This document shows positions 43,390-64,000 of a DNA stretch of 64,000 bases, piece by piece; position 1 is the stretch's first letter; the number at the start of each line of letters is the position of its first letter. Position numbers and translations under genes: made by a program. Under the pieces are notes generated by a model. It ran no database searches, was not told the origin of the DNA, and saw only the letters and a list, made by a program, of their open reading frames with translations. The DNA lies in contig JBBELK010000458.1 in the NCBI GenBank assembly GCA_037783545.1, positions 186,001 through 250,000 of the forward strand. Reading direction: 5' to 3'. This stretch comes from Henricia sp. BOLD:AAB3569 (Eukaryota > Echinodermata > Asteroidea > Spinulosida > Echinasteridae).

Positions 43390-44883
43390 ATTCGACTCGG
43401 TCGGTTTGAACGGGAAACAGTTCAAATTTGCAGTATACGTTTGCGATGTAGTTCTGTTTAAGCAGAAAAAATGCGAAGCTTGTCTGGAAATTCCTTCAGC
43501 TCCAAAATTGCGATCATACCAGACGCAGTGTTCTCCGAAAGCGGGGTCTGTTTGTGCCAACAATTAGTGTGCCGGCACTGAGTTTTAGCTACATTCGACA
43601 ATAACTCGTTCGGTTTGAACGGGAAACAGTTCAAATTTGCAGTATACGTTTGCGATGTAGTTCTGTTTAAGCAGAAAAAATGCGAAGCTTGTCTGGAAAT
43701 TCCTTCAGCTCCAAAATTGCGATCATACCAGACGCAGTGTTCTCCGAAAGCGGCGTCTGTTTGTGCCAACAATTAGTGTGCCGGCACTGAGTTTTAGCTA
43801 CATTCGACACTAACTCGGTCGGTTTGAACAGGAAACAGTTCAAATTTGCAGTATACGTTTGCGATGTAGATCTGTTTAAGCAGACAAAATGCGAAGCTTG
43901 TCTGGAAATTCCTTCAGCTCCAAACTTCCGATCATACCAGACGCAGTGTTCTCCGAAAGCAGCGTCTGTTTGTGCCAACAATTAGTTTGCCGGCACTGAG
44001 TTCTAGTTACATTTGACAATAACTCGGTCGGTTTGAACAGGAAACAGTTCAAATTTGCAGTATACGTTTGCGTTGTAGATCTGTTTAAGCAGAAAACATG
44101 CGAAGCTTGTCTGGAAATTCCTTCAGCTCCAAAATTGCGATCATACCAGACGCAGTGTTCTGCGAAAGCGGCGTCTGTTTGTGCCAACAATTAGTGTGCC
44201 GGCACTGAGTTTTAGCTACATTCGACAATAACTCGGTCGGTTTGAACAGGAAACAGTTCAAATTTGCAGTATACGTTTGCGTTGTAGATCTGTTTAAGCA
44301 GAAAACATGCGAAGCTTGTCTGGAAATTCCTTCAGCTCCAAAATTGCGATCATACCAGACGCAGTGTTCTGCGAAAGCGTGGTCTGTTTGTGCCAACAAT
44401 TAGCATGCCGACACTGAGTTTTAGCTACATTCGACAATAACTCGTTCGGTTTGAACTGGAAACAGTTCAAATTTGCAGTATACGTTTGCGATGTAGATCT
44501 GTTAAAGCAGACAAAATGCGAAGCTTGTCTGGAAATTCCTTCAGCTCCAAAATTGCGATCATACCAGACGCAGTGTTCTCCGAAAGCGGCGTCTGTTTGT
44601 GCCAACAATTAGTGTGCCGGCACTGAGTTTTAGCTACATTCGACAATAACTCGGCCGGTTTGAACAGGAAACAGTTCAAATTTGCAGTATACGTTTGCGA
44701 TGTAGTTCTGTTTAAGCAGAAAAAATGCGAAGCTTGTCTGGAAATTCCTTCAGCTCCAAAATTGCGATCATACCAGACGCAGTGTTCTCCGAAAGCGGGG
44801 TCTGTTTGTGCCAACAATTAGTGTGCCGGCACTGAGTTTTAGCTACATTCGACAATAACTCGGCCGGTTTGAACAGGAAACAG
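43390..44883. repeat. Second copy of the 18153-19646 block
   Basis: This repeats the unit order of 18153-19646 at a 25237-bp offset, including the AATAAC deletion at its start. It carries a small private change (GACACTAACTCGG near 43807). Its last nine bases, AGGAAACAG, are the left copy of the target-site duplication of the inserted element. Confidence 0.75.
44875..44883. repeat. Target-site duplication, left copy
   Basis: AGGAAACAG lies immediately before the left TIR and matches the nine bases after the right TIR. It lies between the arms TTTGAAC and GTTCAAA of the unit's short palindrome, sharing its last G with the right arm. Counting a tenth base (T) is possible because of the neighbouring T, but nine bases leave symmetrical TIR ends. 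Confidence 0.9.
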
Positions 44884-44998
44884 TAGTCTTGGTGCAAGAC
44901 GATACTGACCGCCGCGAGAGGGCGCCATACACTTTACTATGAGGACAGGAAACCAGTCTACGTCCGTGCCTGCAGTATCGTCTTGGGACAAATCCTGA
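44884..44998 (+). repeat. Left 115-bp terminal inverted repeat
   Basis: The sequence from TAGTCTTGG to CAAATCCTGA is the exact reverse complement of 51361-51475. It contains a nested inverted repeat: CAAGACGATACTG at 44895-44907 and CAGTATCGTCTTG at 44973-44985. Each end therefore offers two copies of one 13-bp motif in opposite orientation, plausible paired binding sites for a transposase. Confidence 0.95.
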
Positions 44999-45190
44999 AT
45001 CGCTCGGGAAATTCCGAGCGCATTCCACGCATTGATCATTATGCCATGCATACCTATGACGTGGAGCTTATTAACATAAGTTAAGCCCAGCGCTGTGCAG
45101 TCTGGTACCTGTACGTCTAATATGCACATCTACGGTACAAACAGGGAAAGCTATAATGTACATGTACTAACTGCACTTGCTTCAGAAAAA
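44999..45190 (+). promoter_or_regulatory. Possible promoter and leader of the helicase gene
   Basis: This 192-bp stretch lies between the left TIR and the chosen start codon. It holds a small hairpin (CGCTCGG and CCGAGCG, 45001-45020) and a CRE-like TGACGTGG at 45057-45064. No clear TATA box is visible. Transcription would have to start here or in the TIR, since satellite lies immediately upstream. The site calls are weak. Confidence 0.25.
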
Positions 45191-47655
45191 ATGTCGGCTA
45201 GCGTGGACGACGCTATTGACTTTGCTGCCAGGAAATTAGGATTTGAGAAACTGAAAAGCCACCAAATAAATGCTCTCCGGCAATTCGCACAGGGCAGTGA
45301 TTTGTTTATTAATCTACCTACCGGTTTCGGGAAAAGCGTGATATTTCAAGCTGCTCCATTTGTTGTGGATTTTTTGCAAGACGGGCCTGAGACTGAGGGA
45401 AAAACTAGTACGAACGACGGCGACCATGCTCTTGTCATTGTGGTTCTCCCGCTGAAGGCTCTGGCGGTGAACCAGTTAGAACGAGTAAGTCGGCTCGGTG
45501 TAGCGGCAGCCGACATCACCTCGGTCATTCCGGATTGTGTGATTGAGCAAGCAGACAAGTATTCTATATTATTTGCCAGCCCAGAGACCCTTTGCGGACC
45601 TAAGGGGAAGGAGCTACTTCAGTCGGTGAAAAGTAGATGCTGCGGAATCTTTGTTGACGAAAGTCACTGCGTATCAAAATGGTAGGTTAGGTCTAAACCA
45701 CTGGGAACAGCTTTGTTCAATTCCAACTTTTGTAATAGATACTGAAAATAAATGATAAACTTTCCATGCTTTCTGACGATATTTATTTTTAAAACGTTAT
45801 TTTTTAATATTAAAAATGGACCACAGCAAGATGTTAGTTTGACGGTGAGATTTCTGGTCCAGTTGTGAAACCAGCGACAGTTTGGGGAGATTGTTGTCTA
45901 TGTTTGTGCAAAATTTCAGTGTAAAAAAAAAGCACTTTGTTTGTTTTAGCACACAAAAATGATTATCATTTTCTTTCGGTGAAAGATGGAATATGTTCCA
46001 TTTAACTCGGCTTCTCCTCGTTGAATGTAACATTCCATCTTTCACCTCATGAAAATATTCCTCCCATTGCATTCATAACAATTCATTAGTTGTATATTAA
46101 TCATTTTGAGAGGAAAACATTCATCAATGAATCTTTTCGGAGTTTTCTGCGCACAATGCACGTCAAAGGTCGGGTGTACCAATACTAATAGACTGGTTCC
46201 CATATATCCACTTTTTCTTGCAAGTTGAAGTTACATTGTACAATGTACTCAAGAATGAATGTCTTAGCGTGAATATGAATGTCTTCGTGTGAATTCAGTT
46301 TGAGCTTAATTTACTTGTACGATAACATTTAATTTTTGTTTTCTTTTATTTACAGGGGTCATTCATCAAAAGAGAGCACAGTATTCCGCAAGTGCTATGG
46401 TCGACTTGGAGATTTGCGATCTTTGGTGAAACCCACTACCCGCGTTGTAGCTTTGACAGCCACTGCAACTGTGAAAGTGAGACAAACGATTGTTGAGAGC
46501 TTGGCACTCCGGAATTATGGCATGATAGAGGAGAGCCCTGAACGCTTGAACATCAAGTATGTTGTTCTGAAGTCTGACGACAAGAACTTTGAAGCCATGT
46601 TTAAATGGATGGCACAGGGGATCAATGAGAGAGGCGGTTCCATGGAGAGAATCATTCTATACTGTCAATCTCGCAGAGTTGTCAGTGAACTTCATTCTCT
46701 CTTCCGTTTTCTTCTTCCGAAGGAGCTGCATCGTTACTTTGAAATGTACCACACAAATACGGAAGCTGACGTACAACGAAAAATCATTGACAGTTTTTCA
46801 CGAGAAGATGGAGAGGTGCGCATTTTGTTTGCTACGATTGCATTCGGTCTAGGGATTGATGTGTGTGGTCTTCACACAGTAATATTGGTAGGTCACCCAT
46901 CACATCTAGATGACTTGATGCAGTTGAGCGGGAGGGCAGGCCGTGATGGAGCCCAGAGTTTGGCACTCCTTGTTAAGTATCGTGGTGGTGGGCTTGGTGG
47001 GAAAACAAGCGATGCTATGAAAGCTTTTGTAGAGGGAAGCGAGTGCAGACGGCTTGTTATCAAGAAAAACTTCCCTTCACCAGCAAGAAGCGACACTGAC
47101 ACTGATGCCTCAATGATAAAACATGATTGTTGCGACGTTTGTGCCCAGACATGTGCTTGTGATGGAAGCGAATGCTCTGGTAAACACTCCTATGCTGAAA
47201 AGCAAATGCGAGATGCTCTGCTTCATGGACAGTCAACATCGGCTGAATATCTAATTGTGACGGTGCCACAAAGTCTGGTAACACAATTAAAGGAACATCT
47301 ACAGGAGTACAAACAAACGTTACTGGCAGACAGCAGCAGCCACATGTACACAAGCGAGGGTATTGCCTGTGGCTTGTCAGACTCCACAATAACAGAAGTA
47401 GTCAATGAATGTCACATCGTGTTTCCTTTTGATGACTTCTGTGATCGATATGCTTTTGCACGCAAAGAGATTGCATCACAAGTATGGCAAGTCATGAAAA
47501 CTGAAATATATGACTCGAGTGTCCAGTCACCAGACAAGGGACCATTGTCAGAGTTGGAAAGCGACAACAGCACTGCATCAGATTCTTTCGAGGACCCCTT
47601 GGGTGGCGAGTATGCTGAACCACAATTTGGATCTAGCAGTACTGGTAGTGATTAA
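45191..47655 (+). CDS. RecQ-family ATP-dependent DNA helicase, two exons
   Basis: Predicted protein of about 596 residues: exon 1 is 45191-45681 and exon 2 is 46356-47655, joined in phase 2 across a GT-AG intron. The family unwinds DNA 3' to 5' using ATP. Visible motifs are Walker A LPTGFGKS (residues 42-49), motif Ia VVLPLKALAVNQ, motif II DESH (156-159) followed by CVSKW-GH across the splice, motif III ALTATAT (about 196-202), motif IV IILYCQSRR, motif V LFATIAFGLGID, and motif VI QLSGRAGRDG (353-362). A CRRL cysteine (394) with CCDVC (422-426) resembles the RecQ zinc-binding module. No clear HRDC domain is seen, and the tail is acidic and Ser-rich. The length suits a short RecQ core. The ATG at 45191 has A at -3 and precedes the conserved fold; an in-frame ATG at 45122 would add 23 residues, and an upstream exon cannot be excluded. 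The gene is intact and is the sole convincing gene of the transposon. Motif II DESH differs from the usual DEAH. Confidence 0.85.
45682..46355 (+). other. Intron of the RecQ-like helicase gene (674 bp)
   Basis: The donor is ATG|GTAGGT. The acceptor is a T-rich tract followed by TTTACAG|GGGTCAT. Splicing completes the Trp codon and yields SKW-GHSS, matching the QWGH segment after motif II in RecQ proteins. Without splicing, exon 1 hits TAG immediately after the Trp. The intron is AT-rich and holds one foldback at 45968-46056. Otherwise I see nothing functional in it. Confidence 0.85.
45968..46056. repeat. Imperfect foldback within the intron
   Basis: A perfect 15-bp stem, GGTGAAAGATGGAAT at 45978-45992 with ATTCCATCTTTCACC at 46032-46046, extends imperfectly on both sides (ATTTTC outside, CATT and AAC inside). 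It could be a remnant of a small MITE or simply an RNA hairpin. No target duplication is evident. Confidence 0.6.
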
Positions 47656-47737
47656 ATTATTAAGTAGCTGACCACTGCTTCAGACCTTGTGTACATAATA
47701 CAAAACACATGAAACGGGTTGAAGTGTTTCCATTTTT

Positions 47738-47743
47738 ATTAAA
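47738..47743 (+). terminator. Possible polyadenylation signal ATTAAA
   Basis: ATTAAA lies 82 bp after the helicase stop codon and is followed by a TTGATGCATG stretch and T-rich sequence. It is a common variant of AATAAA, which I do not see closer to the stop. AT-rich sequence makes chance occurrence likely. Confidence 0.35.
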
Positions 47744-47809
47744 TCCTTGATGCATGTTTTTTCTTAGCGTACAAATGCTACTTTTAAACAAATGGTGTCT
47801 GTGTGTAGT

Positions 47810-47840
47810 GGGGGGCGGGGGGTGGTGGTGAGTAATGGGG
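47810..47840 (+). other. G-rich tract with G-quadruplex potential
   Basis: Two runs of six G separated by a single C are followed by TGGTGGTG and, further on, GGGG. The tract sits 155 bp after the helicase stop codon and just before a foldback element. Four runs of at least three G within about 31 bp could form an intramolecular quadruplex on the plus strand or its RNA. Confidence 0.5.
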
Positions 47841-47847
47841 AGTAATA

Positions 47848-48004
47848 GACCTTATCGCTAATAGTAATACCCCTTGGGCAAGTCTGCACAAAAGCACAAC
47901 TGTATTGTGGGAAGGAAAACGGGGCAAAGTCTGCCCCGAAAACCTTCCCACAATACATTGCTGCTTTTGTAAAAACTCACCCAAGCGTTATTTGCAATAA
48001 GGTC
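47848..48004. mobile_element. Foldback MITE-like element, 157 bp
   Basis: The whole segment folds on itself. The left arm starts GACCTTATCGC and the right arm ends GCAATAAGGTC. The inner arms include TGTATTGTGGGAAGG and CCTTCCCACAATACA, ending in a CGGGGCAAAGTCTGCCCCG core. It is bounded by TA on both sides (47846-47847 and 48005-48006), consistent with a TA target duplication as in Tc1/mariner-type MITEs. It has no coding capacity; reading frames across it are chance. Confidence 0.7.
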
Positions 48005-48957
48005 TATGTGGAGTGATTGGACAGTTACAGTACTGTACTGTAGTTGATCCAAGTTTCACAGGTGTATAAAGTTTGCGATATTTGATTTATGTTTCTTACT
48101 AATAGTGAATTTAGTAGATGTGGGAAATCTTTTATGAAGCATATAAATACATGTATTGAGGCATGCCGTACACGATCATTGACAATGCTCTATAGCTGCT
48201 GTGATTGATTTATACAACTTAGGTAATGCCATGTACACTTTTAGATAGTTAATAGTAATTTAAATAGAAATTTTAACAATTGTGACTTTTTTACGGAAAA
48301 CATGACTGCCTTGCAAGTAGCCAGTGTTCGTTTTGAAATGATGTTACCCATGCTACATGTACGCCAGTTTGTTGTACACAATTTTAACCATTTAACTATG
48401 TATTTACAATCTGCCAATGTCAAATTTAAACATGTGTGACAGCTAATGTTTTTTCCCTGTTGCAATTTGCATAAATGTCACCTACATGTATGAGTCAGTG
48501 AATGTAAACGTTTACTTTGGAAATCAAGTAGTGTCATGGGCTTGTATTATACAATGAAATTTACAACTACATGTAAATAGCACATAAGCACAATACGTAT
48601 TTCCATGTACATGTACATGTGAATTTTTGTGAAACACCTGAGCCCGTTTACTCATTCTTAGCGAAGGATGATAAAGACCAGAAGTTTTTCACATGCAATA
48701 TTTACTTACTTATAAATACATTGTATTTAATGTAGGCCCCATTAGTTTCTTGTTAATTCCAATCTTAAAGTACCGGTATACTGTACAGTTAAAAATGCAA
48801 ACAAACTCATTATTTCTCGAGTGTGCTAACCCCAACCATAACTTTTCGTACCTCCATGCCCCAACACATGGTATAATTATTCACTTAAAACTGTAAAGTC
48901 TGTTCTGGTTGTATAAAAATAAACTATGTAGTTTTGTATGAAGTTTTGTTTGTTTAA
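48005..48957. other. Non-coding AT-rich stretch of the element
   Basis: No gene is supported. The short reading frames here have no recognisable motifs. A run of ATGTAC repeats lies at about 48605-48620, and several isolated ACATGTA motifs occur, a composition often seen in marine invertebrate DNA. Confidence 0.6.
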
Positions 48958-49077
48958 AGATATACAGTCTGTGGTTCTCAACAAATTCGTGCCATAAAAT
49001 ACGCAGCTCCATGGCATGGAGCTGCTTATTTCGTGGCACGAATTTGGCGCTCATGCATTGGTGACGAGCCTGTGCCT
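48958..49077. mobile_element. Foldback element with TTAA flanks, 120 bp
   Basis: A strong internal hairpin at 48982-49046 has CAAATTCGTGCC and CAGCTCCATG pairing with CATGGAGCTG and GGCACGAATTTG. The outer ends (AGATATACAGTCT on the left; AGGCACAGGCT as the reverse complement of the right) are only partly alike. TTAA stands on both sides (48954-48957 and 49078-49081), as expected for piggyBac- or Kolobok-type MITEs. The left end looks degraded. Confidence 0.5.
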
Positions 49078-49340
49078 TTAAACGAAAAAACATACTTTGA
49101 ACTTTAGACACTGAATATGTGTCATCCTGCGATAAATTATTTCAGAATCTCAATAACTACGTATTTCTGCAAAAGGAGTACACGACGGAGCTGTCTACAA
49201 ATTTTCTAAACAAAATGGTGGCGCTCATGCTACACAAAGTACATGTAGCTGCAATTGCTATGTACATGTACTTTATGAAGCTTGTATCTGATTTTCAGCG
49301 GGCCAAGTTCAGCACAATATCTGTTGTTTCGGGAATGGGT

Positions 49341-49481
49341 GACTTTTGAGAAACATGTTGGCATCAAACAAACCGGTCCTTTTCTATTGTTTGTCACATT
49401 GAGCATGCACACTTTATAGCTCCAATGTGACGTAAATAATGAAGGACTGGTTTGTTTACTGCCACATGCGTCTCAAAAATC
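49341..49481. mobile_element. Foldback MITE-like element, about 141 bp
   Basis: The left arm has CTTTTGAGAAACATGTTGGC, AAACAAACCGGTCCTT and TGTCACATTGAGC. These pair with GCTCCAATGTGACG, AAGGACTGGTTTGTTTAC and GCCACATGCGTCTCAAAAA on the right. The arms are about 60 bp with several mismatches. Weaker complementarity continues outward, so the true ends and any target duplication are uncertain. Confidence 0.6.
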
Positions 49482-49991
49482 TCCTATTGCAACTGTCACC
49501 CTCAGTTGAGCCTGTGGATTTCCTTTGTCCATGGTTCTACATGTAGCACCATGTAAATGAAGTAGGGTTGTGATGCAAGGACATAATATGAATGATTAGA
49601 TGCACGTAAAATGCGAACATGGAATGCTGTGAGCACTTGGTCGTTACTTTGAGGAAACCTTACAACAGACGAAAACAAAAATCCACAAATGTGACTTTCG
49701 TGGCAAGATAACTCTTTTGCCGTGACCAAAATTCGAACCTGGGTTCAAGCCATTTCACATTCACGTTTTACATGCAAACCTCCTAGTGTTTAGTGAACAA
49801 AATAAATGGATTTACGACCACACATCCAGGCAGAGGATGTGTACCGGTAAACACGTTCTGGCAATGTTAGTCACGGGAGCGGTTGACTCCAAGTGTTGCC
49901 GACCCGGTCACGTCATGAAATACCAGTGGTAATTTCAAATTATTCAGGACTTTACACTCCAGCGTTTAATGACAAAGACCATCAAGACTAG
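49482..49991. other. Non-coding stretch, nothing recognised
   Basis: About 500 bp between two foldback elements. No open frame with recognisable motifs, RNA gene or repeat could be supported here. Confidence 0.5.
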
Positions 49992-50104
49992 TGGTGGATC
50001 CAGCCTCATTCAAATACAGGAATAGAATGGATTTCAGTGGGCTATAGCCCTGCGTTTTCTTTGTATTCCTGTATTTCTGTATTTTAATGAGGCTGGATCC
50101 GCCA
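49992..50104. mobile_element. Foldback MITE-like element, 113 bp
   Basis: The left end TGGTGGATCCAGCCTCATT and the right end AATGAGGCTGGATCCGCCA are near-perfect reverse complements. Complementarity continues into AAATACAGGAATA and the matching TATTCCTGTATTT stretch. A GGGCTATAGCCC palindrome lies between the arms. I see no convincing target duplication, and there is no coding capacity. Confidence 0.65.
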
Positions 50105-50196
50105 ATGAAGACAAACCTTAAAAACACCGGAACTCTCTAGGGAAAGAAGAGTTGACCAGAAAATATTTGCGTTTTTCTATCAAATCTAATGCTTAA

Positions 50197-50556
50197 AGGA
50201 GTGTGACCAGATCATTTTTTTTTACCCATAACTCCCCGGGACTTACCTTATGGGTCATGAGATTTTTATATCATAACATCCGTTATATTTTTTTTGATTA
50301 CGAAACTGAAACTCCCGCGCTTCTAGGCCGCATATTTCCGAGGATATCGTCGAAAATCCACCGATTATTTGTAAACTAATTTTCCAGTATCAACGTTTAT
50401 CCGCTAAAAGCATACTCAATAGTTTTGTTAATTTTTTTACTGGAAATTGCGAATGTTTTCGGGTTTTTGGGACATGGGAGGTGTGTATGGGAGTTACTTG
50501 ATAATATTGGTAAGTTACATCGAAAACTATTTTCCAGAAACTCTGGTCACGCTCCT
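50197..50556. mobile_element. 360-bp MITE with TTAA target duplication
   Basis: The left end AGGAGTGTGACCAGA and the right end TCTGGTCACGCTCCT are inverted repeats matching at 14 of 15 positions. TTAA lies directly outside each end (50193-50196 and 50557-50560). TTAA duplications are used by piggyBac and Kolobok families. The interior is AT-rich; short frames there show no known domain, so it is non-autonomous. It is nested in the larger RecQ-carrying element and is therefore the older passenger or an earlier insertion into it. Confidence 0.75.
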
Positions 50557-51360
50557 TTAAAAATCAGTCATTTTATGGGCGAAAATATTTATGGTCAACT
50601 TCATTCTTATCCAAATTTGTGAGTGCATCTGGGAAAACGTTCTTGCGTTTAAACCTAATAAACATCATCTCTTAAACTGCTCTTTCGCACCAACCCATGT
50701 TTCCTACTCTCTGTTGATTCTCGGTCTCGCTGACCGAAAGAATTTACAAGTCGGACATCACATAAGCCCTGCTGCACTAAAATCCTTTGGTTTTCCATTG
50801 GATTTGCACTTATTGATGCCTAATACATGTAAGTCATTGTAAGGAAAAAACAATGATGTTTGAGTATAAATTATTGCTAAAAAAAACGTGCTTCACAACA
50901 GGGGCAGGAGTAGAGCCCCTGGCATAAACCAAAATGCATTGTTGTTCTGCAAATCTTTTGGCAACATTTTAATGCTTTTTCCCATCCAGGGCAGGTCCGT
51001 CCGTCCACGTGTGTTCACGGCCACATGGAGTAAACTGGAGTGCACCTTGGCGGCATGGTTGTTTAAACTTTAATTATAACTTGGCAGTTTATTTGTTTAC
51101 ACAGTTCACAACAGACTGCACTAGACATCTTTTCCTACCTCCGTGATAAGACACAACAACGATCGATCGATCGATCGCATACATTGTACACATGATGACA
51201 CTAGACAGACTACATGTCACACCATGTCGTCAGAACTTTACCCTCCCACCTTTTTTTGCAAGTTGCCAGACTGGCAGTCTCATTATGCCAGGTGAAATTG
51301 ACCTCTTAATGCATATGTATAAGCTTAGGTCAAAGGTCACATGGTGTCACATACCAACAG
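50557..51360. other. Non-coding stretch before the right TIR
   Basis: No gene is supported. A short GATC tandem run (CGATCGATCGATCGATCG) lies at about 51160-51178. A few sub-85-codon frames occur, without motifs. Confidence 0.6.
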
Positions 51361-51475
51361 TCAGGATTTGTCCCAAGACGATACTGCAGGCACGGACGTA
51401 GACTGGTTTCCTGTCCTCATAGTAAAGTGTATGGCGCCCTCTCGCGGCGGTCAGTATCGTCTTGCACCAAGACTA
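51361..51475 (-). repeat. Right 115-bp terminal inverted repeat
   Basis: This is the reverse complement of the left end with no mismatch that I can see. Identity stops abruptly inside: the inner flank is CCAACAG here, but the left end continues into ATCGCTCGG. The nested 13-bp inverted motif of the left end is present here too. Confidence 0.95.
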
Positions 51476-51484
51476 AGGAAACAG
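51476..51484. repeat. Target-site duplication, right copy
   Basis: AGGAAACAG directly follows the right TIR end (CCAAGACTA) and leads into TTCAAATTTGCAG, the normal continuation of the satellite unit. Confidence 0.9.
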
Positions 51485-54400
51485 TTCAAATTTGCAGTAT
51501 ACGTTTGCGATGTAGTTCTGTTTAAGCAGAAAACATGCGAAGCTTGTCTGGAAATTCCTTCAGCTCCAAAATTGCGATCATACCAGACGCAGTGTTCTCC
51601 GAAAGCGTGGTCTGTTTGTGCCAAACAATTAGTGTGCCGGCACTGAGTTTTAGTTACATTTGACAATAACTCGGTCGGTTTGAACGGGAAACAGTTCAAA
51701 TTTGCAGTATACGTTTGCGATGTAGTTCTGTTTAAGCAGAACAAATGCGAAGCTTGTCTGGAAATTCTTTCAGCTCCAAAATTTCGATCATACTAGACGC
51801 AGTGTTCTCCGAAAGCGGGGTCTGTTTGTGCCAACAATTAGTGTGCCGGCACTGAGTTTTAGCTACATTCGACAATAACTCGGTCGGTTTGAACAGGAAA
51901 CAGTTCAAATTTGCAGTATACGTTTGCGTTGTAGATCTGTTTAAGCAGAAAACATGCGAAGCTTGTCTGGAAATTCCTTCAGCTCCAAAATTGCGATCAT
52001 ACCAGACGCAGTGTTCTCCGAAAGCGGCGTCTGTTTGTGCCAACAATTAGTGTGCCGGCACTGAGTTTTAGTTACATTTGACAATAACTCGGTCGGTTTG
52101 AACGGGAAACAGTTCAAATTTGCAGTATACGTTTGCGATGTAGTTCTGTTTAAGCAGAAAAAATGCGAAGCTTGTCTGGAAATTCCTTCAGCTCCAAAAT
52201 TGCGATCATACCAGACGCAGTGTTCTCCGAAAGCGGCGTCTGTTTGTGCCAACAATTAGTGTGCCGGCACTGAGTTTTAGTTACATTTGACAATAACTCG
52301 GTCGGTTTGAACGGGAAACAGTTGAAATTTGCAGTATACGTTTGCGATGTAGATCTGTTTAAGCAGAAAACATGCGAAGCTTGTCTGGAAATTCCTTCAG
52401 CTCCAAAATACCGATCATACCAGACGCAGTCTTCTCCGAAAGCGGGGTCTGTTTGTACCAACAATTAGTGTGCCGGCACTGAGTTTTAGCTACATTCGAC
52501 AATAACTCGGTCGGTTTGAACTGGAAACAGTTCAAATTTGCAGTATACGTTTGCGTTGTAGATCTGTTTAAGCAGAAAACATGCGAAGCTTGTCTGGAAA
52601 TTCCTTCAGCTCCAAAATTGCGATCATACCAGACGCAGTGTTCTGCGAAAGCGTGGTCTGTTTGTGCCAACAATTAGCATGCCGACACTGAGTTTTAGCT
52701 ACATTCGACAATAACTCGTTCGGTTTGAACTGGAAACAGTTGAAATTTGCAGTATACGTTTGCGATGTAGATCTGTTTAAGCAGAAAAAATGCGAAGCTT
52801 GTCTGGAAATTCCTTCAGCTCCAAAATACCGATCATACCAGACGCAGTGTTCTCCGAAAGCGGGGTCTGTTTGTACCAACAATTAGTGTGCCGGCACTGA
52901 GTTTTAGCTACATTCGACAATAACTCGGTCGGTTTGAACTGGAAACAGTTCAAATTTGCAGTATACGTTTGCGTTGTAGATCTGTTTAAGCAGAAAACAT
53001 GCGAAGCTTGTCTGGAAATTCCTTCAGCTCCAAAATTGCGATCATACCAGACGCAGTGTTCTGCGAAAGCGTGGTCTGTTTGTGCCAACAATTAGCATGC
53101 CGACACTGAGTTTTAGCTACATTCGACAATAACTCGGTCGGTTTGAACAGGAAACAGTTCAAATGTGCAGTATACGTTTGCGATGTAGATCTGTTTAAGC
53201 AGACAAAATGCGAAGCTTGTCTGGAAATTCCTTCAGCTCCAAACTTCCAATCATACCAGACGCAGTGTTCTCCGAAAGCAGCGTCTGTTTGTGCCAACAA
53301 TTAGTTTGCCGGCACTGAGTTCTAGTTACATTTGACAATAACTCGGTCGGTTTGAACAGGAAACAGTTCAAATTTGCAGTATACGTTTGCGTTGTAGATC
53401 TGTTTAAGCAGAAAACATGCGAAGCTTGTCTGGAAATTCCTTCAGCTCCAAAATTGCGATCATACCAGACGCAGTGTTCTGCGAAAGCGGCGTCTGTTTG
53501 TGCCAACAATTAGTGTGCCGGCACTGAGTTTTAGCTACATTTGACAATAACTCGGTCGGTTTGAACGGGAAACAGTTCAAATTTGCAGTATACGTTTGCG
53601 ATGTAGATCTGTTTAAGCAGACAAAATGCGAAGCTTGTCTAGAAATTCTTCAGCTCCAAACTTTCGATCATACCAGACGCAGTGTTCTCCGAAAGCGGGG
53701 TCTGTTTGTGCCAACAATTAGTGTGCCGGCACTGAGTTTTAGCTACATTCGACAATAACTCGGTCGGTTTGAACAGGAAACAGTTCAAATTTGCAGTATA
53801 CGTTTGCGTTGTAGATCTGTTTAAGCAGAAAACATGCGAAGCTTGTCTGGAAATTCCTTCAGCTCCAAAATTGCGATCATACCAGACGCAGTGTTCTGCG
53901 AAAGCGGCGTCTGTTTGTGCCAACAATTAGTGTGCCGGCACTGAGTTTTAGCTACATTCGACAATAACTCGGTCGGTTTGAACAGGAAACAGTTCAAATT
54001 TGCAGTATACGTTTGCGATGTAGTTCTGTTTAAGCAGAAAACATGCGAAGCTTGTCTGGAAATTCCTTCAGCTCCAAAATTGCGATCATACCAGACGCAG
54101 TGTTCTCCGAAAGCGTGGTCTGTTTGTGCCAAACAATTAGTGTGCCGGCACTGAGTTTTAGTTACATTTGACAATAACTCGGTCGGTTTGAACGGGAAAC
54201 AGTTCAAATTTGCAGTATACGTTTGCGATGTAGTTCTGTTTAAGCAGAACAAATGCGAAGCTTGTCTGGAAATTCTTTCAGCTCCAAATTTCGATCATAC
54301 TAGACGCAGTGTTCTCCGAAAGCGGGGTCTGTTTGTGCCAACAATTAGTGTGCCGGCACTGAGTTTTAGCTACATTCGACAATAACTCGGTCGGTTTGAA

Positions 54401-54712
54401 CAGGAAACAGTTCAAATTTGCAGTATACGTTTGCGTTGTAGATCTGTTTAAGCAGAAAACATGCGAAGCTTGTCTGGAAATTCCTTCAGCTCCAAAATTG
54501 CGATCATACCAGACGCAGTGTTCTCCGAAAGCGGCGTCTGTTTGTGCCAACAATTAGTGTGCCGGCACTGAGTTTTAGTTACATTTGACAATAACTCGGT
54601 CGGTTTGAACGGGAAACAGTTCAAATTTGCAGTATACGTTTGCGATGTAGTTCTGTTTAAGCAGAAAAAATGCGAAGCTTGTCTGGAAATTCCTTCAGCT
54701 CCAAAATTGCGA

Positions 54713-57700
54713 TCATACCAGACGCAGTGTTCTCCGAAAGCAATTAGTATGCCGACACTGAGTTTTAGCTACATTCGACAATAACTCGTTCGGTTTGAAC
54801 TGGAAACAGTTGAAATTTGCAGTATACGTTTGCGATGTAGATCTGTTTAAGCAGAAAAAATGCGAAGCTTGTCTGGAAATTCCTTCAGCTCCAAAATACC
54901 GATCATACCAGACGCAGTCTTCTCCGAAAGCGGGGTCTGTTTGTACCAACAATTAGTGTGCCGGCACTGAGTTTTAGCTACATTCGACAATAACTCGGTC
55001 GGTTTGAACTGGAAACAGTTCAAATTTGCAGTATACGTTTGCGTTGTAGATCTGTTTAAGCAGAAAACATGCGAAGCTTGTCTGGAAATTCCTTCAGCTC
55101 CAAAATTGCGATCATACCAGACGCAGTGTTCTGCGAAAGCGTTGTCTGTTTGTGCCAACAATTAGCATGCCGACACTGAGTTTTAGCTACATTCGACAAT
55201 AACTCGGTCGGTTTGAACGGGAAACAGTTCAAATTTGCAGTATACGTTTGCGATGTAGTTCTGTTTAAGCAGAAAAAATGCGAAGCTTGTCTGGAAATTC
55301 CTTCAGCTCCAAAATTGCGATCATACCAGACGCAGTGTTCTGCGAAAGCGTGGTCTGTTTGTGCCAACAATTAGCATGCCGACACTGAGTTTTAGCTACA
55401 TTCGACAATAACTCGTTCGGTTTGAACTGGAAACAGTTGAAATTTGCAGTATACGTTTGCGTTGTAGATCTGTTTAAGCAGAAAACATGCGAAGCTTGTC
55501 TGGAAATTCCTTCAGCTCCAAAATTGCGATCATACCAGACGCAGTGTTCTGCGAAAGCGTGGTCTGTTTGTGCCAACAATTAGCATGCCGACACTGAGTT
55601 TTAGCTACATTCGACAATAACTCGGTCGGTTTGAACAGGAAACAGTTCAAATGTGCAGTATACGTTTGCGATGTAGATCTGTTTAAGCAGACAAAATGCG
55701 AAGCTTGTCTGGAAATTCCTTCAGCTCCAAACTTCCGATCATACCAGACGCAGTGTTCTCCGAAAGCAGCGTCTGTTTGTGCCAACAATTAGTTTGCCGG
55801 CACTGAGTTCTAGTTACATTTGACAATAACTCGGTCGGTTTGAACAGGAAACAGTTCAAATTTGCAGTATACGTTTGCGTTGTAGATCTGTTTAAGCAGA
55901 AAACATGCGAAGCTTGTCTGGAAATTCCTTCAGCTCCAAAATTGCGATCATACCAGACGCAGTGTTCTCCGAAAGCGTGGTCTGTTTGTGCCAAACAATT
56001 AGTGTGCCGGCACTGAGTTTTAGTTACATTTGACAATAACTCGGTCGGTTTGAACGGGAAACAGTTCAAATTTGCAGTATACGTTTGCGATGTAGATCTG
56101 TTTAAGCAGACAAAATGCGAAGCTTGTCTAGAAATTCCTTCAGCTCCAAACTTTCGATCATACCAGACGCAGTGTTCTCCGAAAGCGGGGTCTGTTTGTG
56201 CCAACAATTAGTGTGCCGGCACTGAGTTTTAGCTACATTCGACAATAACTCGGCCGGTTTGAACAGGAAACAGTTCAAATTTGCAGTATACGTTTGCGAT
56301 GTAGTTCTGTTTAAGCAGAAAAAATGCGAAGCTTGTCTGGAAATTCCTTCAGCTCCAAAATTGCGATCATACCAGACGCAGTGTTCTCCGAAAGCGGGGT
56401 CTGTTTGTGCCAACAATTAGTGTGCCGTCACTGAGTTTTAGCTACATTCGACAATAACTCGGCCGGTTTGAACAGGAAACAGTTCAAATTTGCAGTATAC
56501 GTTTGCGATGTAGTTCTGTTTAAGCAGAAAACATGCGAAGCTTGTCTGGAAATTCCTTCAGCTCCAAAATTGCGATCATACCAGACGCAGTGTTCTCCGA
56601 AAGCGTGGTCTGTTTGTGCCAAACAATTAGTGTGCCGGCACTGAGTTTTAGTTACATTTGACAATAACTCGGTCGGTTTGAACGGGAAACAGTTCAAATT
56701 TGCAGTATACGTTTGCGATGTAGTTCTGTTTAAGCAGAACAAATGCGAAGCTTGTCTGGAAATTCTTTCAGCTCCAAAATTTCGATCATACTAGACGCAG
56801 TGTTCTCCGAAAGCGGGGTCTGTTTGTGCCAACAATTAGTGTGCCGGCACTGAGTTTTAGCTACATTCGACAATAACTCGGTCGGTTTGAACAGGAAACA
56901 GTTCAAATTTGCAGTATACGTTTGCGTTGTAGATCTGTTTAAGCAGAAAACATGCGAAGCTTGTCTGGAAATTCCTTCAGCACCAAAATTGCGATCATAC
57001 CAGACGCAGTGTTCTCCGAAAGCGGCGTCTGTTTGTGCCAACAATTAGTGTGCCGGCACTGAGTTTTAGTTACATTTGACAATAACTCGGTCGGTTTGAA
57101 CGGGAAACAGTTCAAATTTGCAGTATACGTTTGCGATGTAGTTCTGTTTAAGCAGCAAAAATGCGAAGCTTGTCTGGAAATTCCTTCAGCTCCAAAATTT
57201 CGATCATACCAGACGCAGTGTTCTCCGAAAGCGGTGTCTGTTTGTGCCAACAATTAGTGTGCCGGCACTGAGTTTTAGCTACATTCGACAATAACTCGGT
57301 CGGTTTGAACAGGAAACAGTTCAAATTTGCAGTATACGTTTGCGATGTAGTTCTGTTTAAGCAGAAAAAATGCGAAGCTTGTCTGGAAATTCCTTCAGCT
57401 CCAAAATTTCGAAAGCGGCGTCTGTTTGTGCCAACAATTAGTGTGCCGGCACTGAGTTTTAGCTACATTCGACAATAACTCGGTCGGTTTGAACAGGAAA
57501 CAGTTCAAATTTGCAGTATACGTTTGCGTTGTAGATCTGTTTAAGCAGAAAACATGCGAAGCTTGTCTGGAAATTCCTTCAGCTCCAAAATTGCGATCAT
57601 ACCAGACGCAGTGTTCTGCGAAAGCGTGGTCTGTTTGTGCCAACAATTAGCATGCCGACACTGAGTTTTAGCTACATTCGACAATAACTCGTTCGGTTTG

Positions 57701-60700
57701 AACTGGAAACAGTTCAAATTTGCAGTATACGTTTGCGATGTAGATCTGTTTAAGCAGACAAAATGCGAAGCTTGTCTGGAAATTCCTTCAGCTCCAAAAT
57801 TGCGATCATACCAGACGCAGTGTTCTCCGAAAGCGGCGTCTGTTTGTGCCAACAATTAGTGTGCCGGCACTGAGTTTTAGCTACATTCGACAATAACTCG
57901 GCCGGTTTGAACAGGAAACAGTTCAAATTTGCAGTATACGTTTGCGATGTAGTTCTGTTTAAGCAGAAAAAATGCGAAGCTTGTCTGGAAATTCCTTCAG
58001 CTCCAAAATTGCGATCATACCAGACGCAGTGTTCTCCGAAAGCGGGGTCTGTTTGTGCCAACAATTAGTGTGCCGGCACTGAGTTTTAGCTACATTCGAC
58101 AATAACTCGGCCGGTTTGAACAGGAAACAGTTCAAATTTGCAGTATACGTTTGCGTTGTAGATCTGTTTAAGCAGAAAACATGCGAAGCTTGTCTGGAAA
58201 TTCCTTCAGCTCCAAAATTGCGATCATACCAGACGCAGTGTTCTGCGAAAGCGTGGTCTGTTTGTGCCAACAATTAGCATGCCGACACTGAGTTTTAGCT
58301 ACATTCGACAATAACTCGTTCGGTTTGAACTGGAAACAGTTCAAATTTGCAGTATACGTTTGCGATGTAGATCTGTTTAAGCAGACAAAATGCGAAGCTT
58401 GTCTGGAAATTCCTTCAGCTCCAAAATTGCGATCATACCAGACGCAGTGTTCTCCGAAAGCGGCGTCTGTTTGTGCCAACAATTAGTGTGCCGGCACTGA
58501 GTTTTAGCTACATTCGACAATAACTCGGCCGGTTTGAACAGGAAACAGTTCAAATTTGCAGTATACGTTTGCGATGTAGTTCTGTTTAAGCAGAAAAAAT
58601 GCGAAGCTTGTCTGGAAATTCCTTCAGCTCCAAAATTGCGATCATACCAGACGCAGTGTTCTCCGAAAGCGGGGTCTGTTTGTGCCAACAATTAGTGTGC
58701 CGGCACTGAGTTTTAGCTACATTCGACAATAACTCGGCCGGTTTGAACAGGAAACAGTTCAAATTTGCAGTATACGTTTGCGATGTAGTTCTGTTTAAGC
58801 AGAAAACATGCGAAGCTTGTCTGGAAATTCCTTCAGCTCCAAAATTGCGATCATACCAGACGCAGTGTTCTCCGAAAGCGTGGTCTGTTTGTGCCAAACA
58901 ATTAGTGTGCCGGCACTGAGTTTTAGTTACATTTGACAATAACTCGGTCGGTTTGAACGGGAAACAGTTCAAATTTGCAGTATACGTTTGCGATGTAGTT
59001 CTGTTTAAGCAGAACAAATGCGAAGCTTGTCTGGAAATTCTTTCAGCTCCAAAATTTCGATCATACTAGACGCAGTGTTCTCCGAAAGCGGGGTCTGTTT
59101 GTGCCAACAATTAGTGTGCCGGCACTGAGTTTTAGCTACATTCGACAATAACTCGGTCGGTTTGAACAGGAAACAGTTCAAATTTGCAGTATACGTTTGC
59201 GTTGTAGATCTGTTTAAGCAGAAAACATGCGAAGCTTGTCTGGAAATTCCTTCAGCTCCAAAATTGCGATCATACCAGACGCAGTGTTCTCCGAAAGCGG
59301 CGTCTGTTTGTGCCAACAATTAGTGTGCCGGCACTGAGTTTTAGTTACATTTGACAATAACTCGGTCGGTTTGAACGGGAAACAGTTCAAATTTGCAGTA
59401 TACGTTTGCGATGTAGTTCTGTTTAAGCAGAAAAAATGCGAAGCTTGTCTGGAAATTCCTTCAGCTCCAAAATTGCGATCATACCAGACGCAGTGTTCTC
59501 CGAAAGCAATTAGTATGCCGACACTGAGTTTTAGCTACATTCGACAATAACTCGTTCGGTTTGAACTGGAAACAGTTGAAATTTGCAGTATACGTTTGCG
59601 ATGTAGATCTGTTTAAGCAGAAAAAATGCGAAGCTTGTCTGGAAATTCCTTCAGCTCCAAAATACCGATCATACCAGACGCAGTCTTCTCCGAAAGCGGG
59701 GTCTGTTTGTACCAACAATTAGTGTGCCGGCACTGAGTTTTAGCTACATTCGACAATAACTCGGTCGGTTTGAACTGGAAACAGTTCAAATTTGCAGTAT
59801 ACGTTTGCGTTGTAGATCTGTTTAAGCAGAAAACATGCGAAGCTTGTCTGGAAATTCCTTCAGCTCCAAAATTGCGATCATACCAGACGCAGTGTTCTGC
59901 GAAAGCGTGGTCTGTTTGTGCCAACAATTAGCATGCCGACACTGAGTTTTAGCTACATTCGACAATAACTCGGTCGGTTTGAACGGGAAACAGTTCAAAT
60001 TTGCAGTATACGTTTGCGATGTAGTTCTGTTTAAGCAGAAAAAATGCGAAGCTTGTCTGGAAATTCCTTCAGCTCCAAAATTGCGATCATACCAGACGCA
60101 GTGTTCTGCGAAAGCGTGGTCTGTTTGTGCCAACAATTAGCATGCCGACACTGAGTTTTAGCTACATTCGACAATAACTCGTTCGGTTTGAACTGGAAAC
60201 AGTTGAAATTTGCAGTATACGTTTGCGTTGTAGATCTGTTTAAGCAGAAAACATGCGAAGCTTGTCTGGAAATTCCTTCAGCTCCAAAATTGCGATCATA
60301 CCAGACGCAGTGTTCTGCGAAAGCGTGGTCTGTTTGTGCCAACAATTAGCATGCCGACACTGAGTTTTAGCTACATTCGACAATAACTCGGTCGGTTTGA
60401 ACAGGAAACAGTTCAAATGTGCAGTATACGTTTGCGATGTAGATCTGTTTAAGCAGACAAAATGCGAAGCTTGTCTGGAAATTCCTTCAGCTCCAAACTT
60501 CCGATCATACCAGACGCAGTGTTCTCCGAAAGCAGCGTCTGTTTGTGCCAACAATTAGTTTGCCGGCACTGAGTTCTAGTTACATTTGACAATAACTCGG
60601 TCGGTTTGAACAGGAAACAGTTCAAATTTGCAGTATACGTTTGCGTTGTAGATCTGTTTAAGCAGAAAACATGCGAAGCTTGTCTGGAAATTCCTTCAGC

Positions 60701-63700
60701 TCCAAAATTGCGATCATACCAGACGCAGTGTTCTCCGAAAGCGTGGTCTGTTTGTGCCAAACAATTAGTGTGCCGGCACTGAGTTTTAGTTACATTTGAC
60801 AATAACTCGGTCGGTTTGAACGGGAAACAGTTCAAATTTGCAGTATACGTTTGCGATGTAGATCTGTTTAAGCAGACAAAATGCGAAGCTTGTCTAGAAA
60901 TTCATTCAGCTCCAAACTTTCGATCATACCAGACGCAGTGTTCTCCGAAAGCGGGGTCTGTTTGTGCCAACAATTAGTGTGCCGGCACTGAGTTTTAGCT
61001 ACATTCGACAATAACTCGGCCGGTTTGAACAGGAAACAGTTCAAATTTGCAGTATACGTTTGCGATGTAGTTCTGTTTAAGCAGAAAAAATGCGAAGCTT
61101 GTCTGGAAATTCCTTCAGCTCCAAAATTGCGATCATACCAGACGCAGTGTTCTCCGAAAGCGTGGTCTGTTTGTGCCAAACAATTAGTGTGCCGGCACTG
61201 AGTTTTAGTTACATTTGACAATAACTCGGTCGGTTTGAACGGGAAACAGTTCAAATTTGCAGTATACGTTTGCGATGTAGTTCTGTTTAAGCAGAACAAA
61301 TGCAAAGCTTGTCTGGAAATTCTTTCAGCTCCAAAATTTCGATCATACTAGACGCAGTGTTCTCCGAAAGCGGGGTCTGTTTGTGCCAACAATTAGTGTG
61401 CCGGCACTGAGTTTTAGCTACATTCGACAATAACTCGGTCGGTTTGAACAGGAAACAGTTCAAATTTGCAGTATACGTTTGCGTTGTAGATCTGTTTAAG
61501 CAGAAAACATGCGAAGCTTGTCTGGAAATTCCTTCAGCTCCAAAATTGCGATCATACCAGACGCAGTGTTCTCCGAAAGCGGCGTCTGTTTGTGCCAACA
61601 ATTAGTGTGCCGGCACTGAGTTTTAGTTACATTTGACAATAACTCGGTCGGTTTGAACGGGAAACAGTTCAAATTTGCAGTATACGTTTGCGATGTAGTT
61701 CTGTTTAAGCAGAAAAAATGCGAAGCTTGTCTGGAAATTCCTTCAGCTCCAAAATTGCGATCATACCAGACGCAGTGTTCTCCGAAAGCAATTAGTATGC
61801 CGACACTGAGTTTTAGCTACATTCGACAATAACTCGTTCGGTTTGAACTGAAACAGTTGAAATTTGCAGTATACGTTTGCGATGTAGATCTGTTTAAGCA
61901 GAAAAAATGCGAAGCTTGTCTGGAAATTCCTTCAGCTCCAAAATACCGATCATACCAGACGCAGTCTTCTCCGAAAGCGGGGTCTGTTTGTACCAACAAT
62001 TAGTGTGCCGGCACTGAGTTTTAGCTACATTCGACAATAACTCGGTCGGTTTGAACTGGAAACAGTTCAAATTTGCAGTATACGTTTGCGTTGTAGATCT
62101 GTTTAAGCAGAAAACATGCGAAGCTTGTCTGGAAATTCCTTCAGCTCCAAAATTGCGATCATACCAGACGCAGTGTTCTGCGAAAGCGTGGTCTGTTTGT
62201 GCCAACAATTAGCATGCCGACACTGAGTTTTAGCTACATTCGACAATAACTCGGTCGGTTTGAACGGGAAACAGTTCAAATTTGCAGTATACGTTTGCGA
62301 TGTAGTTCTGTTTAAGCAGAAAAAATGCGAAGCTTGTCTGGAAATTCCTTCAGCTCCAAAATTGCGATCATACCAGACGCAGTGTTCTGCGAAAGCGTGG
62401 TCTGTTTGTGCCAACAATTAGCATGCCGACACTGAGTTTTAGCTACATTCGACAATAACTCGTTCGGTTTGAACTGGAAACAGTTGAAATTTGCAGTATA
62501 CGTTTGCGTTGTAGATCTGTTTAAGCAGAAAACATGCGAAGCTTGTCTGGAAATTCCTTCAGCTCCAAAATTGCGATCATACCAGACGCAGTGTTCTGCG
62601 AAAGCGTGGTCTGTTTGTGCCAACAATTAGCATGCCGACACTGAGTTTTAGCTACATTCGACAATAACTCGGTCGGTTTGAACAGGAAACAGTTCAAATG
62701 TGCAGTATACGTTTGCGATGTAGATCTGTTTAAGCAGACAAAATGCGAAGCTTGTCTGGAAATTCCTTCAGCTCCAAACTTCCGATCATACCAGACGCAG
62801 TGTTCTCCGAAAGCAGCGTCTGTTTGTGCCAACAATTAGTGTGCCGGCACTGAGTTTTAGTTACATTTGACAATAACTCGGTCGGTTTGAACGGGAAACA
62901 GTTCAAATTTGCAGTATACGTTTGCGATGTAGTTCTGTTTAAGCAGAAAAAATGCGAAGCTTGTCTGGAAATTCCTTCAGCTCCAAAATTGCGATCATAC
63001 CAGACGCAGTGTTCTCCGAAAGCAATTAGTATGCCGACACTGAGTTTTAGCTACATTCGACAATAACTCGTTCGGTTTGAACTGGAAACAGTTGAAATTT
63101 GCAGTATACGTTTGCGATGTAGATCTGCTTAAGCAGAAAAAATGCGAAGCTTGTCTGGAAATTCCTTCAGCTCCAAAATACCGATCATACCAGACGCAGT
63201 CTTCTCCGAAAGCGGGGTCTGTTTGTACCAACAATTAGTGTGCCGGCACTGAGTTTTAGCTACATTCGACAATAACTCGGTCGGTTTGAACTGGAAACAG
63301 TTCAAATTTGCAGTATACGTTTGCGTTGTAGATCTGTTTAAGCAGAAAACATGCGAAGCTTGTCTGGAAATTCCTTCAGCTCCAAAATTGCGATCATACC
63401 AGACGCAGTGTTCTGCGAAAGCGTGGTCTGTTTGTGCCAACAATTAGCATGCCGACACTGAGTTTTAGCTACATTCGACAATAACTCGGTCGGTTTGAAC
63501 GGGAAACAGTTCAAATTTGCAGTATACGTTTGCGATGTAGTTCTGTTTAAGCAGAAAAAATGCGAAGCTTGTCTGGAAATTCCTTCAGCTCCAAAATTGC
63601 GATCATACCAGACGCAGTGTTCTGCGAAAGCGTGGTCTGTTTGTGCCAACAATTAGCATGCCGACACTGAGTTTTAGCTACATTCGACAATAACTCGTTC

Positions 63701-63861
63701 GGTTTGAACTGGAAACAGTTGAAATTTGCAGTATACGTTTGCGTTGTAGATCTGTTTAAGCAGAAAACATGCGAAGCTTGTCTGGAAATTCCTTCAGCTC
63801 CAAAATTGCGATCATACCAGACGCAGTGTTCTGCGAAAGCGTGGTCTGTTTGTGCCAACAA
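54713..63861. repeat. Nested higher-order repeats of the right array
   Basis: Units at 54713-56100 recur at 59479-60870 (offset 4766). Those at 59613-60554 recur at 61894-62835 (offset 2281), and those at 61894-62626 at 63129-63861 (offset 1235). All copies share the order 19-bp-deleted unit, GAACTGG unit, GAACGGG unit, then GTTGAAATT with GTTGTAG. In several copies the GTTCAAATGTGCAG unit follows. Decreasing offsets towards the right edge indicate repeated local amplification of one module. Confidence 0.75.
57541..58795. repeat. Tandem 627-bp trimer duplication
   Basis: Three successive units at about 57541-58167 recur at 58168-58794 with an offset of exactly 627 bp, which is three units of 209 bp. 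This is the smallest clean higher-order duplication I could follow in the window. Confidence 0.75.
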
Positions 63862-64000
63862 TTAGCATGCCGACACTGAGTTTTAGCTACATTCGACAAT
63901 AACTCGGTCGGTTTGAACAGGAAACAGTTCAAATGTGCAGTATACGTTTGCGATGTAGATCTGTTTAAGCAGACAAAATGCGAAGCTTGTCTGGAAATTC

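Follow-up and report, generated by a model that had tools for sequence, protein, structure and literature searches.

What kind of transposon carries an intact DNA helicase as its only gene? The window, the whole 64,000-nt stretch of DNA analysed here, contains such an element, 6,592 bp in length (positions 44884-51475), and nearly all of the window outside it is occupied by a 209-bp satellite. A preliminary description of this DNA had proposed either that a Mutator-like element had captured a host gene or that RecQ is a functional part of an unclassified transposon family. We consider it about 82% probable that the element descends from a two-gene AcademH-type transposon as a non-autonomous derivative in which only the helicase is kept, and that it is moved in trans. 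Its features, by window position, are the following.

44875..44883, no strand: left target site duplication AGGAAACAG, 9 bp, read directly, inside a 209-bp satellite unit.
44884..44998, plus strand: left terminal inverted repeat (TIR), 115 bp, 100% complementary to the right arm.
45191..45681, plus strand: helicase exon 1, with the start ATG and, by eye, Walker A GFGKS and a DESH box.
45682..46355, plus strand: helicase intron, GT-AG, from splice-site reading.
46356..47655, plus strand: helicase exon 2, with the C-terminal motor lobe, a cysteine cluster by eye, an acidic tail with EYAE, and the stop at its end.
47656..51360, no strand: 3.7 kb without a recognisable gene, from the frame listing and comparison with DUF6589 proteins.
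51361..51475, minus strand: right TIR, 115 bp, identical to the left TIR.
51476..51484, no strand: right target site duplication AGGAAACAG, 9 bp, read directly.

The ends are thus as first described, with fully matching arms and the same 9 bp on both sides, and the left TIR also holds an inner inverted repeat of its own (CAAGACGATACTG / CAGTATCGTCTTG). The helicase coding sequence comprises 1,791 nt including the stop and specifies a protein of 596 aa, which matches the Pfam families DEAD, Helicase_C, and ResIII. The nearest PDB structures are BLM (3.1e-29), RecQ (1.1e-27), and WRN (1.3e-27), taking the best E-value of each, and these matches bear out an intact two-exon helicase with RecQ affinity. 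The zinc cysteines that had been claimed for it are visible by eye, but no RecQ zinc-binding family in Pfam is matched at E 0.001. In one relative, the RecQ family is the best match to the helicase, albeit below its curated cut-off. The two open frames of the relatives are interrupted at the same place as the window intron, at HCV.KW / GHSS or similar. Besides the two helicase exons, the element contains no stop-to-stop frame longer than 113 aa, and the DUF6589 proteins of two relatives revealed no remnant within it (best E 0.55), in keeping with the original statement that a recognisable transposase is absent.

The element belongs to a larger family. In the 740.7-Mb assembly, the 24-nt TIR tip is found at 485 places with up to 2 mismatches, and a 112-nt TIR pattern is found at 40 places with up to 3 mismatches; the reversed control gave 0 in each case. 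Among the first 100 of the 485 tip places listed, opposite neighbouring tips lie between 130 bp and 11.5 kb apart. The 40 matches to the longer pattern comprise 13 pairs, a lone right end (C306), and 13 more single ends, and helicase sequence is flanked by all 13 pairs as well as by the C306 end. The matches listed include 14 window-family helicase loci, in which the best exon is 99-100% identical to the window helicase; the window copy was read at full length and the other 13 in pieces. The pairs on C685 and C298 are around 9 kb long, the pair on C616 encloses a helicase with a 697-nt deletion, and the other exon of C1078 reaches only 87% because of a frameshift.

A perfect 9-bp duplication flanks every helicase copy that was read at both ends (13/13), and 10 different target sequences are represented: AGGAAACAG, GCTTGCTGC, GTCAAAGTG, ACTAAATAC, GCAACGCAC, CACGTACGA, GGCTAGTCT, CATACATGC, TCCATTGGG, and TCATTCGGA. 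The last of these occurs at four loci (C1691, C1078, C493, C685), where the flanks are a 297-bp satellite, and the fourteenth copy (C306) has a damaged left end. Duplications of 9 bp also flank C915 and C71 at 748878, the only elements outside this set for which both ends were read. Since 13 copies agree on 9 bp across 10 sequences, the 209-bp satellite in which the element lies does not explain its duplication. The window family is a real TIR element that has been recently mobile, and the helicase of the window copy is intact; the recurrence of TIRs and helicase together also disposes of a one-off capture.

Of the 13 further single ends, 11 were compared with 1.5 kb per side; in ten of these, similarity to the element extends over positions 1-233, at about 96%, and is lost beyond that point, and the eleventh, on C337, is rearranged. 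One of the ten, on C915, is the end of a 2,240-bp element with the duplication CCCAACGCC and no wholly internal stop-to-stop frame longer than 109 aa. Of 12 loci with helicase copies, a count that leaves out C71 at 622 kb and C2, six are situated in satellite arrays, as is 1 of 11 for the 2.24-kb type; as four of the six loci share one flank and two loci were left out, this amounts to no firm bias in targeting.

An 11-kb TIR pair on C71 encloses an open frame of 1,466 aa and could be taken for an autonomous partner that encodes the transposase of the family. Both tips are in common with the family, the duplication is again 9 bp (ACCATTAGC), and the large frame is uninterrupted; the ends, however, belong to the 2.24-kb gene-poor type, and the protein has five other long 100% matches (C480, C1037, C638, C111, C822), all on contigs that do not appear among the 100 of 240 exact long-TIR places listed, a list extending to C1266. 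This reading is very unlikely, a nested insertion being the likelier account of the pair, and a short-TIR form is possible on four of the five contigs. Searches with the C71 protein found nothing in Pfam up to E 1 or in NCBIfam up to E 0.1, and in PDB no match was stronger than E 0.6. A link between it and DUF6589 was not significant by hhalign (E 0.39), and its distant relative on C380 matches DUF6589 only below the curated cut-off.

The identity of the missing partner is suggested by the more distant relatives of the helicase. A search of the genome with the helicase protein, in which 72 of 229 candidates were scored so that its counts are lower bounds, gave at least 73 matches at no fewer than 47 loci, whereas all 91 candidates were scored in the search for DUF6589 (PF20231), which gave 62 matches at 43 loci. 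Among the at least 47 helicase loci listed, 28 are followed, at a distance of 2.0-15.9 kb, by a DUF6589 match that lies downstream in the opposite orientation. With the best exon as the measure of identity to the window helicase, such a convergent DUF6589 is found at 28 of the 33 more distant loci (31-96% identity) and at 0 of the 14 window-family loci among the matches listed. The five distant loci without a DUF6589 match are C195, C763, and C95, with one partial match each, and two places on C154 that have exon 2 only. Conversely, none of the helicase matches listed is near 15 of the 43 loci with DUF6589, although one of them, C870, has a convergent DEAD match about 7 kb away. Two DUF6589 exons (C1720, C131) also hold a C2H2 zinc-finger-like part, below the Pfam cut-off; a fold prediction for the DUF6589 part from two sequences gave a mean pLDDT of 35.7, and our literature search for DUF6589 found no paper. 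Longer relatives carrying a transposase had been envisaged in the preliminary description; the two-gene units are there, and DUF6589 is probably their transposase.

These pairings also bear on the proposed capture of a host RecQ gene by a Mutator-like element. A long TIR and a 9-bp duplication fit Mutator-like elements (MuDR) and resemble what is seen in the window family. PMC10045372 gives duplications of 4-10 bp for IS256/MuDR, a range that accommodates 9 bp. Most relatives of the helicase, however, themselves form repeated units together with DUF6589, and none of the 19 matches to the MULE transposase (PF10551) lies on a contig with any of the at least 47 helicase loci listed. As the helicase is a regular component of a long-lived lineage in which most units have two genes, the element is not an isolated capture and does not belong to the Mutator-like elements, and we regard the Mutator-like capture as exceedingly unlikely. 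The helicase is very likely a standing transposon gene, and to that extent the second proposal of the preliminary description has survived; the family to which it belongs is probably not an unclassified one.

AcademH, within the Academ superfamily, is said to have been defined in Kojima 2020. According to PMC10045372, AcademH elements bear a helicase and generate duplications of 9 or 10 bp, whereas AcademX elements have a nuclease in place of the helicase and generate duplications of 3 or 4 bp. The window family accordingly resembles AcademH, as reported there, in its helicase, which is present in the window element, in its TIRs, and in a 9-bp duplication that falls within the AcademH range; it differs from AcademX, placed by the same literature in the same superfamily, in both gene and duplication length. 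Most relatives of the window family have DUF6589 on the opposite strand. The window family differs from AcademH in being without a transposase gene: there is no candidate for an Academ transposase in the window element, nor is there any DUF6589 near the 14 family loci among the matches listed. Because this feature is absent, we file the element as a transposase-less derivative and not as a full AcademH, and the family is probably a member of the AcademH-type lineage. In a screen of fungi (PMC10799480), DEAD and Helicase_C domains are said to derive, in all likelihood, from AcademH, KolobokH, and Helitron.

KolobokH is the other lineage to be considered, since it too is a DNA transposon that encodes a RecQ helicase, and a Kolobok of red algae has its RecQ helicase on the complementary strand, according to PMC9587614. 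The same paper gives Kolobok duplications as TTAA, of 4 bp, and those of KolobokP as 3-5 bp, against 9 bp in 13/13 copies here, and reports KolobokH from fungi only. There is hardly any chance that the window element is of this type.

How, then, does the window family relate to a two-gene parent? Among the matches listed, its nearest two-gene relatives are C62 (helicase identity 92-96%) and C229 (78-94%), in which DUF6589 lies 4.6 kb and 15.9 kb, respectively, beyond the helicase. The two agree at 94% in their DUF6589 DNA, and apart from a 73-nt piece of C229 nothing else in the genome matches it at more than 70% (14/14 candidates scored). The family's own DUF6589 gene is found at two old loci only. 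Stops interrupt the helicases of both C62 and C229; a single in-frame stop is present in DUF6589 of C62, and the matched DUF6589 stretch of C229 is free of stops. C229 aligns with the window element from position 114, the inner TIR border, inwards, the compared stretch excluding the C229 TIR. Within the 3' region that has no gene, C229 and the window element are 94.6% identical over element positions 3123-3474. The left end of C62 is gone, as its match begins only at position 170, and of the TIR tips listed for the contig with C62, the nearest lies about 8 kb upstream. The two-gene parent presumably had the same ends as the window family.

The helicase itself has been maintained over the history of the lineage. 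When window exon 2 is compared with C1387, C3, C154, C1720, and C131, pN is 0.28-0.42 and pS is 0.80-0.82, both given alone because dS between subfamilies is saturated. This comparison, of the kind that the preliminary description had in mind, shows that selection has preserved the gene for a long time. Divergence among the window-family copies is slight: 12 copies with all or nearly all of exon 2 differ from the window copy at 0-5 of about 1,300 bases, and the truncated exon 2 of C616 differs at 3 of 603. Outside exon 2, differences from the window copy are mostly around 1% or less, with insertions and deletions commoner in the intron and the 3' part, which in C298 is not alignable.

Whether selection continued after the partner gene was lost is the point at which a rival reading arises. 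It supposes a split system, in which the helicase-only element is a working helicase donor, a separate and now rare element gives the transposase, and selection kept the helicase after the split. Consistent with this, the helicase frame, judged on the frame alone and not on splice sites, is open in 9 of 14 family copies; in the remaining five, a frameshift, a stop, or a deletion interrupts it. Helicase sequence is present in every one of the 13 elements that the 112-nt TIR pattern matches at two ends, that of C616 with its large deletion, and DUF6589 DNA of the family persists only at the two old loci. In addition, the coding changes found in two or more copies divide into 4 silent and 1 replacing, whereas those private to one copy are 8 silent and 20 replacing, including one stop (Fisher p 0.047; classes sorted by hand). 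The p value rises to 0.106, however, once one silent site confined to four same-target copies is dropped, the Walker A residue is changed in two of the nine open copies (to glycine in C306 and serine in C493), and intact frames may just reflect the youth of copies so similar in exon 2. The counts thus hint, weakly, that the multiplying copies may have kept a working helicase, and the split system as a whole is unlikely.

A helicase-only derivative moved in trans remains the preferred explanation, and a mechanism can be outlined on the basis of the sequence comparisons. The full relatives encode a RecQ-like helicase and a convergent DUF6589 protein, the candidate transposase, and the derivative would have lost the transposase half while its helicase and its two ends were retained. 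The TIRs would be bound by transposase produced from another locus, which would excise the element and insert it at a new site through a 9-bp staggered cut. Strand opening or repair during transposition is the step in which the helicase most likely assists. For the recent copies, C229, with its stop-free stretch of DUF6589, a missing or polymorphic two-gene copy, or another subfamily is a possible source of the transposase.

The significance of these elements is that helicase subfamilies in large number are found side by side in one eukaryotic genome of 740.7 Mb, along with two-gene units, copies that have the helicase alone, and derivatives of very short length. They also link DUF6589, to which Pfam assigns no function, with transposons that carry a helicase, in which it is probably the transposase. 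The young helicase-only copies offer a natural test of the role of the helicase in transposition, and they also bear on why duplication length differs between the helicase and nuclease lineages.

Both TIRs of the window element harbor an inner inverted repeat (CAAGACGATACTG / CAGTATCGTCTTG), and therefore one lone element end could, on the basis of its sequence, fold back on itself. The sequence outside the element consists almost entirely of a 209-bp tandem satellite, in which some units are 184 bp long. The helicase itself is closed by an acidic, serine-rich tail, which is found in all nine aligned exon 2 proteins and carries the motif EYAE in seven of them, EYTE in the copy on contig C1852 and EYRE in that on C131. 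This is possibly a docking tail.

Window features and helicase tails
Window 44895-44985: inner inverted repeat of the TIR
Window 1-44884 and 51476-64000: tandem satellite of 209-bp units, some of them 184 bp long
Window 47560-47655, and exon 2 ends in sequence stretches L041, L054, L056, L058, L059, L062, L063 and L072: helicase acidic tail

Contig C71 encodes a large protein that finds no match in a Pfam search. Six long matches to it are 100% identical, of which one contains a stop, and there are many relatives at 29-50%. Its C-terminal stretch looks nuclease-like, of XPG-like type. The protein probably represents another transposon, nested in an element of the gene-poor 2.24-kb type. Reading frames that by eye resemble genes of other mobile elements lie at two further places: DIRS-like ORFs beside a helicase copy of 52% identity and a LINE-like open frame immediately outside the C915 copy of the 2.24-kb type.

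Probable or possible genes of other mobile elements
L074:396-3500 (C71:752895-755999), minus strand: large protein, open frame of 1,466 aa
L070:6285-9900: ORFs resembling reverse transcriptase and tyrosine recombinase
L073:2540-4999, minus strand: 820-aa open frame resembling LINE endonuclease-reverse transcriptase

Flank inspection (satellite content compared in L009, L012, L017, L018, L023 and L025-L028) places helicase copies within satellite arrays at 6 of the 12 loci examined, with units of 297 bp, a related 296 bp, and 209 bp; for the 2.24-kb type, the figure is 1 of 11. Four of the six satellite-borne helicase loci have in common a single target sequence inside the 297-bp unit, and thus the arrays may have multiplied a helicase-element insertion by copying it.
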